A DNA stretch of 37,122 nt from Acidobacteriota bacterium (GTDB lineage: Bacteria; Acidobacteriota; Vicinamibacteria; Vicinamibacterales; UBA2999), in NCBI GenBank assembly GCA_027622905.1, contig JAQBVV010000017.1, positions 1 through 37,122 on the forward strand, read 5' to 3'. The position numbers and the translations under genes are program-made. The notes under the pieces are model-generated. The model saw only the letters and a program-made list of their open reading frames with translations, was not told the DNA's origin and searched no databases. Positions 5,249 to 22,737 of this stretch are shown here, one piece after another; the first letter of the stretch is position 1; the number at the start of each line of letters is the position of its first letter.

Positions 5249-7468
5249 TCATCGTTGCTCCTTTGGTTGCTGGTTTCGACCGGAGGGTGATCCACGCCGC
5301 TTGTCGACAGGCTGTGCTGCGGTCCAGAGCGTCTGGTCAACGCTGCCGGTACTCCAGACGATGTTGTCGCCCCCTCGAGTACTCCAGACGATGTTGTCGT
5401 CGCCGCCGGTGCTCCAGACGATGTTGTCGTCGCCGCCGGTGCTCCAGACGATGTTGTCGCCACCGCCGGTGCTCCAGACGATGTTGTCGCCACCGCCGGT
5501 GCTCCAGACGATGTTGTCGTCGCCACCGGTGCTCCAGACGACGTTGTCGCCCCCTCGAGTACTCCAGACGATGTTGTCGCCACCGCCGGTGCTCCAGGCG
5601 ATGTTGTCGTCGCCACCGGTGCTCCAGACGATGTTGTCGCCGCCGCCGGTGCTCCAGACGATGTTGTCGCCGCCGCCGGTGCTCCAGACGATGTTGTCGT
5701 CGCCGCCGGTGCTCCAGACGATGTTGTCGCCGCCGCCGGTGCTCCAGACGATGTTGTCGCCGCCGCCGGTGCTCCAGACGATGTTGTCGCCGCCACCGGT
5801 GCTCCAGACGATGTTGTCGTCGCCGCCGGTGCTCCAGACGATGTTGTCGGCGGTCTTGATACCCCAGACGAGTCGTTCGCCCGTCGGAGCCGCGTCAGTG
5901 CCCCACGTGACGTCCAGCGTCCACGCGTTGCCGCCAGGCAGCGGGAGGCCGCCGCGGATCCGGTGGTTGCCCCAGAGGATCTGACGGCTCCACTTCACGG
6001 GTTCGTCTTCGATCACATCGAGCGGCAGTGGGGGACCGTTCTGAGGCGATCCGAAGAAGGACGCCATGCGAACTGCGCCGAGGGCGTTCAAGTGGCCAGC
6101 GCCCTGGGCAAGCAGTGGCGCCCCCTCGCGGGACTGGGCCGTGTACTGCAGGATCGCCTTGACGGCGTTGGGCGTGAGTGCCGGGTTGACCTGGAGCATG
6201 AGCGCCACGGTGCCAGTCACCACGGGTGCCGCCATGCTCGTACCCGACATGCTCAGGTACGGTTTGTAGCGAGCCCGGCGCACACCGTCGAGGAGGTAGT
6301 CGGCCTGCGTCGTATACAGCGTGCTGCCGGGGTCTGACAACGACTCGGTGCCTACGCCGGGCGCCACCAGGTCCGGTTTGGCCGAGAAGTCGATCCACGT
6401 CGGCCCCCGGGAACTGAACGGCGCGAGCGTGTCGTCACTGCGTTGCGGCGTGCCTTCGTGGCTGCCGGCGCCAACAGTCAGGACCCACGGGGCGTTGCCG
6501 GGGCTGGTGATGCCGCCCCATTGTGCATCGCCGTGTGCGGTCGCTCCCAGATTGCCGGCCGCCGCGACGACGACGATGCCCGCGTTCACGGCACGGCGAG
6601 CCGCCAGGGTCAGGGGGTCGGTTGCGTACGATTCGAATACACCCGTTGCGACCGACAGGTTGATGATGCGGATGTTGTACAGATCCTTGACTGCGATCGC
6701 GTGGTCGATGGCGGCGATCACGTTGCTCATGTACCCGTTCCCCTCGGCGTCGAGCACCTTGAGTCCGATCAGGTGAGCGCCGGGCGCGATGCCCTTCCTG
6801 GCCCCGCGGGAGTCGAAGCCGCTACCCGCGATGATGCCGGCCACGTGGGTGCCGTGGCCGTATTCGTCAGACGGCTGTTCGGAGGCCCAGATATTCGGAC
6901 TCCCCTCTGTCGTGAAGTCCTTGAAGTGGACGACGCGAGGACTGCCGCGGCGGGCCTTTCGCATCGTCAGATAGAGGTCGTCGTGCCAGGCGGTAATGCC
7001 GGAATCGATCACCGCCACGCCGATCCCCCTGCCCGTGGCGTGGAACACCTGGGTGGCCAGAGACGCGGCCGTGGCCGCCCCCGTGCGGTCGAGCGTTGGA
7101 AACACCGGATGGTCGATGCTGACCCGCGCGACCTGCGAGTTGCGCGCCAGGTCGGCAAGCGCGCGGTTGTCGATTTCCGCCACCTGTGAGTCACTGGCCC
7201 CGAGTCGGCGCCCGGACACGCCGCCCCTGCCGGCGATCAGCTGAGCATCCGCCGAGCCGCGGAAGCGCACGATCACGCGTGAGCGTCCAGTAAGTTGCTT
7301 TGCTCGCTCCCGCAGAACCGGGGCGAGTCTTTCAGACTCGACTTGCTGCGCCTGACTCGTCACCGGGTACAGCAGCCCGATCAGCGCGATGAGGGTCACG
7401 GAGCGCCGGAAGCGTGGCGTCAAGCCAGTCGACGCACGGACGGTTTTGGTCGTTGTGGTCTGTGTCAT
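5249..7468 (-). CDS. Secreted S8 (subtilisin) serine peptidase with 17 tandem DNIVWSTGG-type repeats at its C-terminus
   Basis: An exported endopeptidase of about 739 residues. Seen: a signal peptide (FRRSVTLIALIGLL... ending SQA, about residues 20-40), an I9-like propeptide region, then the S8 triad Asp155 (AVIDSG), His205 (YGHGTHVAG) and Ser411 (SGTSMAAP), with Asn306 (AAAGN) for the oxyanion hole. Residues about 540-710 are 17 exact-length decapeptide units (consensus DNIVWSTGG followed by G or D), with degenerate units on both sides (RLVWGIK and VDQTLWT) and a short basic tail. I chose ATG 7468 because it gives a normal signal peptide; an in-frame ATG at 7546 is possible. A sigma54-like promoter lies at 7706-7721 and a sigma54 activator gene is immediately upstream on the same strand. 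The repeat domain's role is unknown; display or aggregation at the surface is a guess. Confidence 0.9.
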   Translation of the reverse strand: MTQTTTTKTVRASTGLTPRFRRSVTLIALIGLLYPVTSQAQQVESERLAPVLRERAKQLTGRSRVIVRFRGSADAQLIAGRGGVSGRRLGASDSQVAEIDNRALADLARNSQVARVSIDHPVFPTLDRTGAATAASLATQVFHATGRGIGVAVIDSGITAWHDDLYLTMRKARRGSPRVVHFKDFTTEGSPNIWASEQPSDEYGHGTHVAGIIAGSGFDSRGARKGIAPGAHLIGLKVLDAEGNGYMSNVIAAIDHAIAVKDLYNIRIINLSVATGVFESYATDPLTLAARRAVNAGIVVVAAAGNLGATAHGDAQWGGITSPGNAPWVLTVGAGSHEGTPQRSDDTLAPFSSRGPTWIDFSAKPDLVAPGVGTESLSDPGSTLYTTQADYLLDGVRRARYKPYLSMSGTSMAAPVVTGTVALMLQVNPALTPNAVKAILQYTAQSREGAPLLAQGAGHLNALGAVRMASFFGSPQNGPPLPLDVIEDEPVKWSRQILWGNHRIRGGLPLPGGNAWTLDVTWGTDAAPTGERLVWGIKTADNIVWSTGGDDNIVWSTGGGDNIVWSTGGGDNIVWSTGGGDNIVWSTGGDDNIVWSTGGGDNIVWSTGGGDNIVWSTGGDDNIAWSTGGGDNIVWSTRGGDNVVWSTGGDDNIVWSTGGGDNIVWSTGGGDNIVWSTGGDDNIVWSTGGDDNIVWSTRGGDNIVWSTGSVDQTLWTAAQPVDKRRGSPSGRNQQPKEQR
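5341..5850 (-). repeat. Seventeen tandem 30-bp coding repeats
   Basis: Seventeen head-to-tail units of exactly 30 bases, all in frame with the protease. Most bases are invariant. Differences cluster at the codon giving Gly or Asp (GGT-GGC versus GGT-GAC) and in synonymous positions; three units carry Arg instead of Gly (two near the end, one mid-array) or Ala/Val swaps. Near-identity at the DNA level, not only the protein level, points to recent expansion by slippage or unequal recombination. Such arrays usually differ in copy number between strains. Confidence 0.97.
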
Positions 7469-7705
7469 AAGTAACTTGTCCCCGGGGGTTTGGTGTCGCC
7501 AGCGTCTCGGTAAGGCAAGGGGCCTGCCGCGTGGCGCGTACCACAATCGTGGGACGTCACAACCCGTTGTGAAATCAGGAGGTTCGGAAGGCGCGCAACT
7601 CGACCGGGCAGCGGGTCCAGTCGTGCAGTTCTGCGCAGCCTGTGTGCAAAAAACGCACAGCGCCAGGCGGAATCCGTTGCAAAGAATACAGTTTGGTTAG
7701 ACGAG

Positions 7706-14445: not shown

Positions 14446-15156
14446 CTACGCGGACGTCACCAGTTCAAGAAGAATCGCCGCGGCCGCTGGCGTGTGCACG
14501 AGCACCTTCGATGCGGCGCGGGTTCCGATGGTGATGTGGTGATCGTCTTTTCCGCGCACACGAACGCTGTCGGACGCTGAATCGCGGTCTTCCACCTCGA
14601 TCGACTCGCCCGGCTTCAGGTGATGGTTCTCGATGAATCGAAGGAAGCTCTTGTCTTGATCGATCACGCGCGTGATCGTGACCGGCGTGTTGAGCGGACA
14701 GGTGAGGAGGGATTGCGCAGGTTGCGGCGTGATGACGCCTTCCTGGTCGGGGATGGGGTCTCCATGGGGATCGACCGCCGGTCGCCCGAGCATCTCGTCC
14801 ATCCGATCGACGAGCCGGTCGGAGACGGCGTGCTCCAGTTGCTCCGCCTCGTCATGTACCTCGTCCCACCGGTACCCCATGACCTGGACGAGGAACAGTT
14901 CGACCACCCGGTGGCGCCGGACAACCAGAGCGGCGAGCTTCTCACCGGCCTCGGTCAAGGCGACGCCCGTATACGGCTCGTATTCGACGAGACCAGACTC
15001 GGCGAGCGTCTTCACCATCGTGGTGGCGGTGCCAGGAGCGACTCCCAGCGCGCACGCCAGCTGGCCCATCGGGAGTAGCCGGTGCGGCTTGGTGAGGGCG
15101 GCAACCCCGAGGTAGATGGCCTTCAAGTAGTTCTCGACAGTGCTGGATGGCAGCAT
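14446..15156 (-). CDS. DtxR/MntR-family metal-dependent transcriptional repressor
   Basis: 236 residues: N-terminal winged helix (VENYLKAIY..., recognition region APGTATTMVKTLAESGLVEYEPYTGVALT), a dimer and metal domain, and a C-terminal SH3/FeoA-like domain (about 155-236). The DtxR metal residues H79, E83, H98, C102, E105, H106 map with a constant +3 shift to His82, Glu86, His101, Glu105, Glu108, His109. The cysteine is therefore replaced by Glu, as in manganese-sensing MntR. The N-terminal ligand (Met10 in DtxR, Asp8 in MntR) is Asn9. This points to Mn or another non-Fe metal but does not prove it. ATG 15156 is favoured; ATG 15195 is possible. Divergent from the oxidase/ZIP/cupredoxin operon, with a palindrome between them. 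Confidence 0.88.
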   Translation of the reverse strand: MLPSSTVENYLKAIYLGVAALTKPHRLLPMGQLACALGVAPGTATTMVKTLAESGLVEYEPYTGVALTEAGEKLAALVVRRHRVVELFLVQVMGYRWDEVHDEAEQLEHAVSDRLVDRMDEMLGRPAVDPHGDPIPDQEGVITPQPAQSLLTCPLNTPVTITRVIDQDKSFLRFIENHHLKPGESIEVEDRDSASDSVRVRGKDDHHITIGTRAASKVLVHTPAAAAILLELVTSA

Positions 15157-15194
15157 TTTGTGGAGTCTAACACAATATTTTGACTTGGCTTGCA

Positions 15195-15224
15195 TTGACT
15201 TTTGACGCAGCCATGAAGTATTTT
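15195..15224 (+). promoter_or_regulatory. Candidate sigma70 promoter of the oxidase-ZIP-cupredoxin operon
   Basis: TTGACT at 15195-15200 and TATTTT at 15219-15224 with an 18-base spacer. The predicted transcription start is near 15231, leaving about six bases before the ATG at 15237. The surrounding 80 bases are AT-rich compared with the genes. Confidence 0.5.
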
Positions 15225-15237
15225 TGACTAATCAAAA
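15222..15237. promoter_or_regulatory. Palindromic operator candidate for the DtxR/MntR-type repressor
   Basis: TTTTGACTAATCAAAA, a perfect inverted repeat with 6-bp arms and a CTAA centre. It overlaps the -10 element, the predicted start site and the A of the oxidase start codon. Extra half sites TTTTGAC occur at 15178-15184 and 15200-15206. Bound repressor would block the operon and could also affect its own divergent gene. Confidence 0.55.
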
Positions 15238-16295
15238 TGCTGGTAACGTCACTTACACGTCGAGCGTGGCTGCGCGCCGCAGGGTTCGCGTCGCTGGCAA
15301 GCGGCGTCGTCGGTGCCGCGCGCCTGTCGGGTCAGGGTCAAGGGGGTGGTACCGCGCTGCACCCCGCGCACGACGCTCACATCATGGGTACGGTGGGCAC
15401 CCCGGCGCCGGACGGTTTCAACCCAACGACATTTCTGCAGACCTGGAACTTCAGTGACTTGCCTCCGGAGGAGCGCGCGCGACTCTATCGGGAGACACCC
15501 CGTCCCGACGGCACCATGCTGCGCGAGTACGAGATCTTCTCGGCGGACCGCGAGATCGAGATCGCGCCGGGGATGTTCTTTCCAGCCTGGACCTATAACG
15601 GTCAGGTGCCGGGGCCGACGATCAGGGCGACCGAGGGCGATCGGATCCGCGTCACGTTTCGGAACCTGGGTTCCCACCCGCACTCGATCCACTTTCACGG
15701 CTGGCATCCGCCCGCCATGGATGGAGCGCTTGCGGGTCAGGAGGTGCCGCCGGGCGAGACGTTCGTCTATGAGTTCGATGCCGACCCGTTCGGCGTGCAT
15801 CTCTACCACTGTCACACGGTGCCGCTGAAGCGGCACATTCACAAGGGCCTGTACGGGGTGGTCATCGTCGACCCCAGGGCGTCGCGCGGCAGCCGGCCGC
15901 CCGCCGACGAGTTCGTGATGGTGATGAACGCCTTCGACACGACCTTCGACGCCGAGAACGAGGTCTACGCGGTGAACACCGTGGCCAACGCATATGTGCG
16001 CGAGCCCATCCGGGTCACGGTGGGCCAACTGGTGCGGGTGTACCTCGTGAACCTCACCGAGTTCGACCCTATTAACAGCTTCCACCTGCACGGAATGTTT
16101 TTCGACGTGTATCGCACCGGCACCTCTCTGGTGACCAGTGAAACGACCGACACGATCATGTTGTGTCAGGGAGAACGCGCGATCCTGGAAACCACGTTCC
16201 GGTACCCCGGTGACTTCATGTTCCATGCCCACCAGAGTGAGTTCGCCGAGCTGGGGTGGATGGGATTCTTCCGCGCGGAGGCGCCGTCGACGTGA
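15237..16295 (+). CDS. Two-domain multicopper oxidase, Tat-exported
   Basis: 352 residues. Seen: a Tat signal (TRRAWLRAAG, then a hydrophobic stretch to about 30) and two cupredoxin domains. Copper ligands are in four clusters: HSIHFHG (His149, 152, 154), HCHTVPLKRH (His191, Cys192, His193, His200), FHLHG (His283, 285) and FHAHQSE (His330, 332). The type 1 copper cysteine is only in domain 1, which is the type C arrangement of two-domain oxidases; HCH rather than HCA argues for a trinuclear centre and oxidase rather than nitrite reductase activity. Likely substrate is a metal ion or a phenolic, in the periplasm. The start codon lies within the operator palindrome, so the message would be almost leaderless. 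Its stop overlaps the ZIP start (GTGA). Confidence 0.9.
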   Translation: MLVTSLTRRAWLRAAGFASLASGVVGAARLSGQGQGGGTALHPAHDAHIMGTVGTPAPDGFNPTTFLQTWNFSDLPPEERARLYRETPRPDGTMLREYEIFSADREIEIAPGMFFPAWTYNGQVPGPTIRATEGDRIRVTFRNLGSHPHSIHFHGWHPPAMDGALAGQEVPPGETFVYEFDADPFGVHLYHCHTVPLKRHIHKGLYGVVIVDPRASRGSRPPADEFVMVMNAFDTTFDAENEVYAVNTVANAYVREPIRVTVGQLVRVYLVNLTEFDPINSFHLHGMFFDVYRTGTSLVTSETTDTIMLCQGERAILETTFRYPGDFMFHAHQSEFAELGWMGFFRAEAPST

Positions 16296-17470
16296 CGCGC
16301 CGGCTGTTCCTCGGGGTGCTGCCGCTCGCGCTCCTTGCAGCGCTACTGGTCCTGATCGTGCGGTCCGGGCCCACGGACCTGGTGCGCGGCGACAACTATC
16401 CGCCGGTGGAACGCCTGATGTTTCAGCGCGTTGTGCTGGAGCCAGGCTTCATCGTGGCCAGCGTATTGAACGACGGACCCGATCAGGTCACGATCGCGCA
16501 GGTCCAGGTCGACGAGGCGTTCTGGACCTTCACCGCCGACAGCGGCGTCGAGCTGGGGCATCTGAGTCGAACGACGCTGCGCATTCCATACCCGTGGGTG
16601 GACGGTGAGGCTCACCTCTTCAAGGTTCTGACGTCCACCGGCACGGCATTCGAGCATGAGATCGCCGTGGCCGTCGAAACCCCAACGCCCGGCATTCGCT
16701 TCTTCGGGATCTTCACGCTCATCGGTCTCTACGTCGGGGTGATTCCCGTCGCCATCGGATTGCTGTGGTTCCCGTTCGTCAAGCGCCTCTCGGTCGGCGC
16801 GACCGACTTCCTCCTGGCCTTGACGGTGGGTCTGCTCGCGTTTCTGCTCGTCGACGGGGCGAGCGAGGGGCTTGAGTCGGCGGGGATGCTGCCCGAGTCC
16901 TTTCAGGGGGTCGTCCTGTTTGCGTTGGCCGCGGCAGGTGCCTACCTGTTGCTCGAAGGCGTCGGCGCGTGGTTGCGGGCGCGGCGGCAGAAGGTCGACG
17001 CAGGCCGGGACGGATGGGTGCTGGCGCTTCTGATCGCGGTCGGTATCGGTCTCCATAACTTCGGTGAGGGGTTGGCGATCGGGTCGGCATTCGCACTGGG
17101 AGAAGCCGCGCTCGGCACGCTGCTGATCGTCGGCTTCACGCTGCACAACACGACCGAAGGGCTGGCAATCGTCGCACCGCTGGCACGGGACCGCGAGCGT
17201 GTCTCCGTGGCGGACCTCGCGAAGCTGGGATTGATTGGCGGCGTGCCGACGATCGCCGGTGCGTGGGTGGGCGGCTTTGTCTACTCTCCGGTCTGGTCGG
17301 TGCTGTTTCTCGCGATCGGCGTCGGCGCGATCGCGCAGGTCGTCGGCCAGATCGTGCGGCAGATGACGCGAGAGGGTTCGGTAGCGCGGATGCTCGCCAC
17401 CGGTCCAGTGCTTGCCGGTCTGTTTGCAGGGTTTGCCGTGATGTACGTTACCGGGATGCTGGTCGGATGA
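16292..17470 (+). CDS. ZIP-family metal transporter with an N-terminal exported beta domain
   Basis: 392 residues from GTG 16292. Seen: one membrane segment (residues 5-23), about 115 residues of predicted extracytoplasmic beta-rich sequence (NYPPVERL...FEHEIAVAV), then about eight membrane segments. The paired ZIP metal motifs are HNFGEG (His255-Gly260) and HNTTEG (His285-Gly290) in successive helices. ZIP proteins carry Zn, Fe or Mn toward the cytoplasm. A basic loop (RARRQK) precedes the metal helices. The N-terminal domain is not part of the standard ZIP core and I do not recognise it. Start and stop both overlap their neighbours, so expression is coupled to the oxidase and cupredoxin. 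Confidence 0.87.
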   Translation: MTRRLFLGVLPLALLAALLVLIVRSGPTDLVRGDNYPPVERLMFQRVVLEPGFIVASVLNDGPDQVTIAQVQVDEAFWTFTADSGVELGHLSRTTLRIPYPWVDGEAHLFKVLTSTGTAFEHEIAVAVETPTPGIRFFGIFTLIGLYVGVIPVAIGLLWFPFVKRLSVGATDFLLALTVGLLAFLLVDGASEGLESAGMLPESFQGVVLFALAAAGAYLLLEGVGAWLRARRQKVDAGRDGWVLALLIAVGIGLHNFGEGLAIGSAFALGEAALGTLLIVGFTLHNTTEGLAIVAPLARDRERVSVADLAKLGLIGGVPTIAGAWVGGFVYSPVWSVLFLAIGVGAIAQVVGQIVRQMTREGSVARMLATGPVLAGLFAGFAVMYVTGMLVG

Positions 17471-17874
17471 GGATCCTGGGGCACGACCTGTCGAGGGCGG
17501 TGCTGTTCAAGGTGGCGATCCCGTTCGTGGGGGTGCTGCTCCTGGCGGTAGCGTTGCCCGCGCTGACCAGCACGCCGACACGAGAGGTCACGTTGGTCGC
17601 CAGGGGAATGGCGTTCTACATCGAGGGAGACGCCGGCACGCCGAACCCGACGATCGAAGTGAAGGCCGGCGAGCGCGTGCGCATCGTGCTGCGGAACGAC
17701 GATCGAGGGATGAGGCACGACTTCGCCGTCCCGGCTCTTGCGGCGGCCATGGATGCTCTCCGCTGGAACGAGTCGGCCGACGTCATCTTCGACGCCCCGG
17801 AGACGCCGGGCACCTACCAGTACGAATGTCGTCCCCACCGAATCATGATGCGAGGCGTGCTCAGGGTCTACTGA
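17467..17874 (+). CDS. Membrane-anchored cupredoxin
   Basis: 135 residues: a hydrophobic anchor (about 12-34), then a cupredoxin fold ending in YECRPHRIMMRG. Type 1 copper ligands visible are His84 (RHDFAVP), Cys121, His124 and Met127 (C-x2-H-x2-M). It would act as a one-electron carrier outside the cytoplasmic membrane, plausibly taking or giving electrons to the multicopper oxidase two genes upstream. ATG 17467 overlaps the ZIP stop (ATGA). The open frame extends back to 17263, but that part lies inside the ZIP gene in another frame. Confidence 0.85.
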   Translation: MRILGHDLSRAVLFKVAIPFVGVLLLAVALPALTSTPTREVTLVARGMAFYIEGDAGTPNPTIEVKAGERVRIVLRNDDRGMRHDFAVPALAAAMDALRWNESADVIFDAPETPGTYQYECRPHRIMMRGVLRVY

Positions 17875-19646: not shown

Positions 19647-20663
19647 CTAGCCGGTGCTCAGGAGATGCAGTTGCGGCTCCAAAGCCCTGCCAATCTGGCG
19701 GAGCGTGTCCATTCCGTGGACATCGCGCGGCAGCAGCTCCAAAGAGACCCGAGGAAGGTCCGAGAACGTCCGGTCGATCTCGTCCCGGTATTTGAGTTCC
19801 TGGAGCCGTCGCTCCCGGAGGAACGCACCCTCCGCGTCTGGTGGCAACAGCCGATTCACGATCATGCCTGCGACCGGGACGTCGAACGTTCTGAGGAGGG
19901 CCAGCGTTTTCCTGCTCTCGAGAATCGGCAGCCGTTCCGCGTTGATCACGAGCAGGAACGCGGTGATGCTGGCGTCGGTCAGCAGCGCTCGCGCCCGATG
20001 AAATTTTCGTCGCCGGGCCAGCAGGATGTCGTGGATGCGGCCGTCCCTGGTGTCGTCCGATGCGTCGGTGGTGCCGCCGAGGATCCCGAACTCGTCTTCC
20101 GCCGCCTGATCCCTGCCGAGCGCTGTCATGAGGGTGCCGAGTTTTCGCGACCGGTCGCGATAGCCGAGCATCCCATCACTCCAGGCGGCCATCATTTCCG
20201 GCAACGACAGCAGGCGAATGGTGTGGCCGGAGGGCGCCGTGTCGAAGATCAACAGATCGAAGCGACGTTTCGCGTCGGCCATCAAGTCGGCCATGCGTTC
20301 GAGGAGGGCCGCCTCCATGGTGCCAGGGGAGTGGCGGGCCAGTTCCAGCTGGCGGTCGATGGCGTCGTACAGCTTCGGCGCGACCATGGACTTCATGCCG
20401 GCCTTGACGGTGTCGATATGACGCTCGGCCTCTTCCTCCGGGTCGATCTCCAGGCCTGTCAGGTGCGGGCTGAGCGCTGTCTCGGTATTGCCGACCCGTG
20501 TATCGAAGACATCGCCCAGTGAATGCGCGGGATCGGTCGAGACCAGCAGTGTGTCGCGGCCCGCATCGGCGGCCATCAGCGCCAGCGCGCCGGCAGTCGT
20601 GGTCTTGCCGACACCACCTTTCCCACCGACGAAGATGATGCGGCGGTCGAGCAGGCGATGCAC
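19647..20663 (-). CDS. ArsA/Get3-family ATPase lacking cysteines
   Basis: 338 residues. Seen: the deviant Walker A GGKGGVGKTTTAG (residues 13-25), switch I DPAHSLGDVFD, switch II DTAPSGHTIRLL, and the MIVNRLLP adenine-side segment of the ArsA/Get3 group. I find no cysteine anywhere in the product, so it lacks the metalloid-binding cysteines of arsenite-pump ArsA and the zinc CxxC of Get3. An arsenite role is therefore unlikely. It starts at GTG 20663 just after a 39-bp palindromic repeat, about 105 bases downstream of the Cys-Cys-tailed protein gene, and is probably co-transcribed with it and cstA. Confidence 0.88.
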   Translation of the reverse strand: MHRLLDRRIIFVGGKGGVGKTTTAGALALMAADAGRDTLLVSTDPAHSLGDVFDTRVGNTETALSPHLTGLEIDPEEEAERHIDTVKAGMKSMVAPKLYDAIDRQLELARHSPGTMEAALLERMADLMADAKRRFDLLIFDTAPSGHTIRLLSLPEMMAAWSDGMLGYRDRSRKLGTLMTALGRDQAAEDEFGILGGTTDASDDTRDGRIHDILLARRRKFHRARALLTDASITAFLLVINAERLPILESRKTLALLRTFDVPVAGMIVNRLLPPDAEGAFLRERRLQELKYRDEIDRTFSDLPRVSLELLPRDVHGMDTLRQIGRALEPQLHLLSTG

Positions 20664-20694: not shown

Positions 20695-20733
20695 AGAGCG
20701 TTTTTCGATTCGGTGGAGACCGAAAAGCGCTCT
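20695..20733. repeat. Palindromic interspersed repeat, short copy B
   Basis: 39 bases beginning AGAGCGTTTTTCG and ending CGAAAAGCGCTCT, so the ends are inverted repeats. The first 30 or so bases match copy A at 1636 almost exactly, and the last 13 match its right end. It looks like copy A with the middle deleted. Located between the ATPase and the CC-tailed protein genes. Confidence 0.75.
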
Positions 20734-20767: not shown

Positions 20768-21040
20768 TCAGCAGCATCTGAAGTCGTCGAGGGGTGAATG
20801 CTCCATGCCCATGCGCGTGTGCCATGCATGGAACCGCTCGAGCAGGATCGGTTGCAGTTCAAGCGTGTAGTAGGTCGCCGGGTTTGGAATGCCCATCATC
20901 TCGGAGAAGACGAGGAGCATGAAGAGGTCGTCCTCGTCGCGCTTTGCGCGTGCGACCACGCCTCGATACGGAGCGTTATAGAACTCGGAGGCCAGATAGG
21001 TCACCCGGCGCAGCGTCTGTCTGACGTCAGTCCACGCCAA
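20768..21040 (-). CDS. Cory-CC-star-type small protein ending in Cys-Cys
   Basis: 90 residues from a TTG start at 21040, five bases after the cstA stop. Seen: NAPYRGVVARAKRDEDDLFMLLVFSEMMGIPNPATYYTLEL, then ERFHAWHTRMGMEHSPLDDFRCC and stop. The only cysteines are the last two residues. This fits my memory of the family named cory-CC-star, but I cannot check it here. Its role is unknown. The position between cstA and an ArsA-type ATPase suggests the three work together. A TTG start is unusual but CTG and GTG are the only alternatives nearby; the longer opening to 21481 lies inside cstA. Confidence 0.8.
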   Translation of the reverse strand: MAWTDVRQTLRRVTYLASEFYNAPYRGVVARAKRDEDDLFMLLVFSEMMGIPNPATYYTLELQPILLERFHAWHTRMGMEHSPLDDFRCC

Positions 21041-21045
21041 TGCGT

Positions 21046-22737
21046 TCAGCTCGCAGGCGCTGCCGCCGCGGACGCGTCTGCGGCCCGCCTTTCCCTGGTG
21101 AACGCGGCTGCGGATTCCAGGAGCACGAAGATCGACGCGACCACGATCACGAGGTCGAGCCCCGCGAGCATGTACTGACCACTCGCGATCAGATCCCACA
21201 GCTGATAGAGCGCCGCAAGGAACGACATCGACGTGACGAACACCATCGGCACCAGCGTGAACACGTACTGTCTCCGCAGCTTGACCAGCATGACGCTGAC
21301 CACCAGCAGGGTCAGGCCTGCCAGGAGCTGATTCGTGGTGCCGAACAGCGGCCAGATGAGCATGCCACCCTGGCCGTCGGCACCACCGGCCCCGAACGCA
21401 AGCGCGACGCACGCCGTCACAGCCAGGAGCGTCGCGACGTAACCGTTCTGCAGCGTGGGAATGTTGTAGATCGTGCCCCATTCCTGAACGATGTAGCGCT
21501 GGAGCCTGACCCCGGCATCCATTGTTGTCCCGGCGAACAACACGGCCATGACGGCAAGCAGCGTGCTCGCGAACTCAACCGACAGTCCTGTGCCTGACGA
21601 AATGATGTTTGCGCCTCCGGCGACGAACGTGCCGATACCGGTCGAGCCAAAGGACGAGTAGGTCGCCTCCCACTCGGTCAGCGATGCGAAGCCGGCCGAC
21701 ACGGCGATGATGACGACAAGGGCAAGCAGACCCTCGCCGGCCGAACCCAGATAGCCGACGAATCGGGCGTCGGTTTCCTTGTCCAGCTGCTTCGAGGTCG
21801 TGCCGGACGAGACCAGACCATGGAACCCGGAGATCGCACCACACGCGACGGTCACGAACAGCAGCGGAAAGATCGGAGGCGTCCCCGCAGGCACGTTCGC
21901 GTTGAGCATCGGCGCGACGATCGTGGGGTTGGCGATGAACACCGCACCGAACAGGAGTCCAAGACCGATGAAGAGCTGGATGCCGTTGATGTAGTCCCGC
22001 GGCTGGAGGAGGAGCCAGACCGGCAGCAGTGATGCAATCATGGCGTAGACAAAGAGGATCAGGATCCACTGCGGGCCCGGTGCAAGCCCGAGAAAGGTCG
22101 CCGGCAACTCCACGGGCACGATCTCGCCGAGATAGATGACGGCATACAGGATGATCGTGCCGACGACGGTTGGCCACAGGATCGGGACGCCCACCCGGTA
22201 GATCAGCACGCCGATCACGACAGCGACGGCGATGGCGCTCCAGACCGGAATCACGGCGCTGGGCGTGTCCACCAGCGCGTTGGAAATCGCCACGGCGAAG
22301 ACGGCATTGACCATCAGGAGCAGAAGAAAGATCACGATCATGAACAGGGTGCGCGCCCGGGGACCCACCACCTGGCCGGTGAGCGCTCCGACCGACGTAC
22401 CTTTATTTCGGACGCTGGCCCAGATCGCGCCGAAGTCATGAACGCCCGCGAAGAAGATGGTGCCGAAGATCACCCACAGAAACGCGGGCAGCCATCCCCA
22501 GATGACCGCGATGGCCGGTCCGATGATCGGCGCCGCACCAGCGACGGCTGTGAAGTGGTGGCCCCACAACACGACCCTGTTCGTGGGAATGAAGTCCACG
22601 TCGTCCCGCATCGTGTGGGAAGGTGTCTCGAAGTTCGGATCGAGTTTGTAGATCTTCTCGGCCATGAACTTCGAATAAAACCGATAGCCCAGAGCCACGG
22701 CGACGATGCCGGTTACCGCGAGGACGATTGCGCTCAT
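21046..22737 (-). CDS. cstA: Carbon starvation protein CstA family (peptide/pyruvate transporter-like)
   Basis: 563 residues with many membrane segments. Seen: the N-terminal MSAIVLAVTGIVAVALGYRF, the CstA core NRVVLWGHHFTAVAGAAPIIGPA, HDFGAIWASVRNKG, and ISGFHGLVSSGTTSKQLDKETDAR. Family members transport pyruvate or peptides and are induced on carbon limitation. It is shorter than E. coli CstA (about 700 residues), closer to the compact bacterial form. ATG 22737 gives the family N-terminus; the frame is open to 23034 through the leader element, which is spurious. The promoter candidate is about 290 bases upstream. The next gene starts six bases after its stop. Confidence 0.93.
   Translation of the reverse strand: MSAIVLAVTGIVAVALGYRFYSKFMAEKIYKLDPNFETPSHTMRDDVDFIPTNRVVLWGHHFTAVAGAAPIIGPAIAVIWGWLPAFLWVIFGTIFFAGVHDFGAIWASVRNKGTSVGALTGQVVGPRARTLFMIVIFLLLLMVNAVFAVAISNALVDTPSAVIPVWSAIAVAVVIGVLIYRVGVPILWPTVVGTIILYAVIYLGEIVPVELPATFLGLAPGPQWILILFVYAMIASLLPVWLLLQPRDYINGIQLFIGLGLLFGAVFIANPTIVAPMLNANVPAGTPPIFPLLFVTVACGAISGFHGLVSSGTTSKQLDKETDARFVGYLGSAGEGLLALVVIIAVSAGFASLTEWEATYSSFGSTGIGTFVAGGANIISSGTGLSVEFASTLLAVMAVLFAGTTMDAGVRLQRYIVQEWGTIYNIPTLQNGYVATLLAVTACVALAFGAGGADGQGGMLIWPLFGTTNQLLAGLTLLVVSVMLVKLRRQYVFTLVPMVFVTSMSFLAALYQLWDLIASGQYMLAGLDLVIVVASIFVLLESAAAFTRERRAADASAAAAPAS

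Follow-up and report, generated by a model that had tools for sequence, protein, structure and literature searches.

A Cys-Cys tail that may serve CstA-family transporters, borne by a small protein in an operon with an ArsA/Get3-type ATPase

The window analysed here, a stretch of 37,122 nucleotides from an Acidobacteriota bacterium (GenBank assembly GCA_027622905.1, contig JAQBVV010000017.1), raises the question of which of its neighbours a small protein ending in two cysteines serves: the CstA-family transporter encoded before it or the ArsA-type ATPase encoded after it. Read 5′ to 3′ on the minus strand, the three genes encode the transporter (22737-21046; 563 aa; PF02554 at 2.5e-136 in the translation, 456 bits against a cut-off of 27), a mostly helical 90-aa protein with a TTG start (21040-20768) and a single-domain ArsA/Get3-type ATPase of 338 aa with a GTG start and no cysteine (20663-19647; PF02374 at 3e-68, TIGR00345 at 1.5e-73). 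The last codons of the small-protein gene, TGC TGC TGA (20768-20776), specify the Cys-Cys (CC) tail and the stop. A first-pass annotation, made from the letters alone, had described this row of genes, the CC pair as the only cysteines of the 90-aa protein and a Cys-free ATPase, and all of this is confirmed; the range that it gave, 20768-22737, holds CstA and the CC-tailed protein, but the ATPase gene lies just outside it. The layout, in which the genes for CstA, a protein of ~90 aa and a single-domain ArsA homologue adjoin on the same strand, is that of a cstA-cstX-arsA operon.

The small-protein gene and the ATPase gene are separated by a gap of 104 bp, within which lies, on the plus strand, a copy of a dispersed repeat, TTCGATTCGGTGGAGACCGAA (20704-20724). 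A further copy is found at 1645-1665, and the genome holds 121 copies with up to 2 mismatches compared with 0 for a reversed control. As far as we have seen, the copy in the gap plays no part in the function of the system. Elsewhere in the window, a 30-bp unit is repeated 17 times (5341-5849) inside the ORF of a subtilisin-like protease (5249-7546, PF00082), giving peptide repeats like NIVWSTGGGD. Genes for an iron-dependent repressor with a FeoA domain, a multicopper oxidase, a ZIP-like membrane protein (called by eye, with no Pfam match) and a cupredoxin are clustered at 14446-17874.

The co-occurrence check proposed by the first-pass annotation was run on 80 named loci that a scan of GTDB genomes had yielded, a biased sample because it takes only the nearest of at least 576 relatives. 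Among these closest 80, 77 carry the genes for CstA, the CC-tailed protein and the ATPase one after another in that order, all on the same strand, and the three genes are thus a unit, as the annotation had it. Of the other three loci, two are cut by a contig end and one (L125) has no CstA upstream. The 80 loci range over Acidobacteriota, Gemmatimonadota and Gamma- and Betaproteobacteria, plasmid records extend the range to Alphaproteobacteria and Bacillota, and the genes often overlap across the relatives' loci. Within the window's phylum the small-protein family occurs in 30 of 247 genomes, with the ATPase adjoining in all 30 and CstA in 21. The small protein and the ATPase also occur as a pair away from CstA, namely in 7 genomes of the window's order, at L041, at the tail-less L056 and at L125, and may there serve another partner. 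At L041 (7018-11056) a CC-tailed small protein and its ATPase, without CstA, adjoin a heavy-metal P-type ATPase and an ArsR-family regulator. CstA loci that lack the small protein had such an ATPase nearby in 0 of 109 and 0 of 67 cases, 60 of these 176 loci being viewed with 1.5-kb flanks only.

The small protein belongs without any departure to the NCBIfam family NF041419, 'cory-CC-star protein' (135 bits against a curated cut-off of 80, positions 2-80 of 80), including the C-terminal Cys-Cys that marks the family. All 80 relatives (the closest 80 of at least 576) end in CC, and in all 75 of these with a readable RMG motif the pair follows that motif at a spacing of 12 residues, compared with a CC ending in only 1 of 387 unrelated ORFs (250 aa or longer) from comparable loci. 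The ending is therefore conserved beyond chance. An AlphaFold2 model of moderate confidence (pLDDT 80, pTM 0.40) has three helices, and Foldseek returned no PDB match for it. A Pfam search assigned the protein to no family. A PHROGs search gave chance-level matches only. We considered whether it could be a divergent YbdD and rejected this: it has no Pfam match to YbdD/DUF466 (PF04328), hhalign gives a probability of 1.5% and the two bodies show no detectable homology. PF04328 has no match in the source genome either. Searching the open-licence literature for cory-CC-star by name found no paper.

That the function of the system is unknown, as the first-pass annotation stated, is too strong. Castillo and Saier (2010; PMC2963123) describe cstA-cstX-arsA operons that consist, like the one in the window, of CstA, a protein of ~90 aa and a single-domain ArsA homologue of ~330 aa, with no arsR. 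They propose CstX as the coupler between CstA and the ATPase, and they note paralogous CstX and adjacent ArsA pairs. By size, position and context our small protein is probably the CstX of these authors, although what is available of their text does not mention a CC tail. Moreover, E. coli uses its CstA-family proteins to transport pyruvate (PMC5847655, PMC7730263), and the window CstA probably carries pyruvate or another small carboxylate related to it.

The ATPase shares its fold family and nucleotide motifs with ArsA of the arsenite pump. We nevertheless reject it as a pump part, since it has one domain, lacks the arsenite-site cysteines and has no arsenic genes alongside; against TIGR04291 it scores 148.7 bits where the cut-off is 650. 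The first-pass annotation had reached the same view from the absence of cysteine. Of 115 ATPase relatives, 59 are likewise Cys-free, and no cysteine column is conserved among them. With Get3/TRC40 the protein shares single-domain architecture, Pfam family, clear sequence similarity, the deviant Walker A (GKGGVGKT, residues 14-21, 20601-20624, conserved in relatives) and the switch motifs STDPAHS and DTAPSGHT. It differs from Get3/TRC40 in having no zinc-binding CxxC, and the relatives' ATPases have none, the single apparent case (L052) falling in an over-extended frame. In ten loci (L042-L045 and L047-L052, of which L044 and L047 are cut by contig ends) the small protein and the ATPase are both doubled while CstA is single. 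In every complete doubled pair the switch-I Asp of the second ATPase is replaced by Asn (STNPVHS), at a position where the Asn mutant of yeast Get3, D57N, does not, as far as is known, hydrolyse ATP. These sequences suggest that the doubled ATPases may form a heterodimer with one inactive site.

The first-pass annotation had also linked the ATPase to the CC tail, and here its account finds no support, whilst the three-gene unit and the non-arsenite ATPase stand. Of the 30 phylum genomes with the small-protein family, 11 have a CC-ending member over the cut-off, L041 has a CC form below it, and 18 have tail-less members that end, for example, in HLHGV, SDAMF, FEGWA or FDVG. The tail-less proteins share with the CC forms the core around a P..YY.L..LP motif, match NF041419 alone among curated families, below its cut-off, and are encoded in operons of the same type, with the ATPase adjoining. 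The weakest of them reach E values of ~1e-4 to 1e-6, and their membership rests equally on gene order and sequence. Conversely, CC tails are found where there is no ATPase at the locus, both on YbdD and on the C-terminus of CstA itself. With the same type of ATPase beside tail-less family members in 18 of 30 genomes, and CC tails beside CstA without an ATPase, a link between ATPase and tail is unsupported. The best reading is that the ATPase pairs with the body of the small protein, tail or no tail, since it adjoins the family in 30 of 30 genomes, is doubled together with it and is absent from other CstA loci; physical contact between the two would follow from this reading.

The CC ending instead goes with CstA. 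In E. coli, YbdD is required for pyruvate uptake by CstA (PMC5847655), and the YbdD family (DUF466) ends in Cys-Cys, the last cysteine being selenocysteine (Sec) in some Campylobacterales (PMC4607533). A parallel with YbdD is implied by the name of the KCU-star selenoproteins (NF033934; PMC13188914). Like the cory-CC-star protein, YbdD is a small partner of a CstA-family transporter, and it ends in [RK]CC or CU; unlike ours, its system has no ATPase. Moreover, some CstA carry the ending themselves, as a short CC-ending extension with no YbdD domain: 14 of 129 CstA of the phylum sample, against 1 of 387 other ORFs, and 7 CstA of a second set of 120 genomes, drawn from the phylum to which a Pseudidiomarina genome belongs. 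Of the 48 loci of the YbdD-type clade, 32 have a YbdD-like gene and 14 an own-tailed CstA, with neither in 2 and both in none, so that 46 of 48 have exactly one CC or CxC tail and none has two. Own-tailed CstA outside this clade number 7. The Fisher value for YbdD against own tail in the clade, 2.5e-10, overstates the independent evidence because the tree calls for few own-tail switches (two in this clade, about four in all). Six loci (L065, L066, L068, L069, L071 and L072) have divergent CC-ending YbdD-like genes downstream of CstA, which PF04328 missed and which we found by hand, and the YbdD of L267 and L281 ends in RCPC instead of CC. Among CstA beside a cory-CC-star gene (closest relatives of at least 576), 0 of 78 have a CC of their own, and PF04328 is absent from 25 of 26 cory-CC-star genomes, the 26th having a second CstA beside its YbdD. 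A search of the first sample's CstA, cory and YbdD genes for Sec forms (Cys before TGA with a stop soon after) gave none. For many CstA there is no CC tail at all in the vicinity, and the tail is thus not universally needed. Taken together, other carriers obtain a CC from an unrelated helper or bear their own, which suggests that the helper's CC ending serves CstA rather than the ATPase. We consider it fairly probable that the CC or Cys-Sec peptide is a portable, exchangeable part of the CstA family, each transporter having one, whether it is built into CstA or comes from one or the other of two unrelated small proteins, with one branch under the control of an ArsA/Get3-type ATPase.

The window CstA itself ends in AAAAPAS, with no CC. 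Its core contains an invariant cysteine (ACGAISGFH) that is present in CstA with or without a tail. No solved relatives of CstA or YbdD were found by sequence. A model of an own-tailed CstA (pTM 0.90) matches LeuT-fold transporters in Foldseek, and from this homologous model the window CstA is expected to have a LeuT-type fold. The last 14 residues of the model, which include the tail, are disordered, so that the model shows no docking site for the tail on CstA.

For the operon as a whole we propose a model to which we give an even chance of being correct. CstA would be a LeuT-fold secondary transporter, and the small protein would have two separable parts, a helical body for the ATPase and a CC tail for CstA, on which the tail would act from the cytosolic side. 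Working as a nucleotide switch like Get3 and ArsA, the ATPase may bind the body and time the access of the tail to CstA. The tail would most likely serve as a latch, a redox-active dithiol positioned where CstA faces the cytosol, a redox role being preferred because Sec occurs in DUF466 (PMC4607533).

The strongest rival, which we regard as possible but doubtful and which is partly compatible with this model, is that the ATPase powers transport by CstA in the manner of ArsAB, with the small protein as coupler. It draws on the published operon and coevolution analysis (PMC2963123), and on the presence, next to a transporter, of an ATPase whose Walker A and switch motifs are intact. However, the energy source of E. 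coli CstA is the proton gradient (PMC7730263), the loci of YbdD-type and own-tailed CstA lack an ATPase, and CstA is modelled as a LeuT-fold secondary transporter. With a proton-driven E. coli CstA and other CstA lacking an ATPase, we favour regulation by ATP over powering.

Get3 proteins handle the C-terminal tails of their clients. This was the ground for the earlier proposal, in which the Cys-Cys tail itself is what a Get3-like ATPase recognises and delivers, and the strict co-occurrence of CC-star protein and ATPase would fit it. We hold this proposal to be unlikely: the same ATPase family accompanies tail-less small proteins in 18 genomes, CC is found on YbdD and CstA without an ATPase, and the ATPase has no conserved cysteine. 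Slightly less likely still is a metal site on the CC tail, with the module serving metal homeostasis. The pair at L041, which neighbours an ArsR-family regulator and a P-type ATPase bearing heavy-metal domains, would fit it, as would the iron-dependent repressor, multicopper oxidase and cupredoxin some 2 to 6 kb off in the window, but nearly all other loci carry CstA and not metal genes, Sec at the equivalent DUF466 position (PMC4607533) would be unusual for a metal site and the ATPases have no CxxC. That the three genes are mere neighbours, as the 104-bp gap and its repeat might suggest for two of them, is refuted by their co-occurrence in the same order, and often overlapping, in Acidobacteriota, Pseudomonadota, Gemmatimonadota and Bacillota, and we give it next to no credence.

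In summary, the locus is a member of a described operon type, for which coevolution and a coupling role were set out in 2010 (PMC2963123), and the name of its small-protein family comes from NCBI. The own-tailed CstA and the independence of the tail from the ATPase are apparently unreported in the open-licence literature. CstA that bear their own tail and have no YbdD suggest that YbdD, which E. coli needs for pyruvate uptake and which ends in the Cys/Sec tail, and cory-CC-star proteins are above all tail carriers. The portable tail is the part worth testing. If our reading is true, a detachable thiol tail would be the means by which a transporter is controlled in the ATPase branch.
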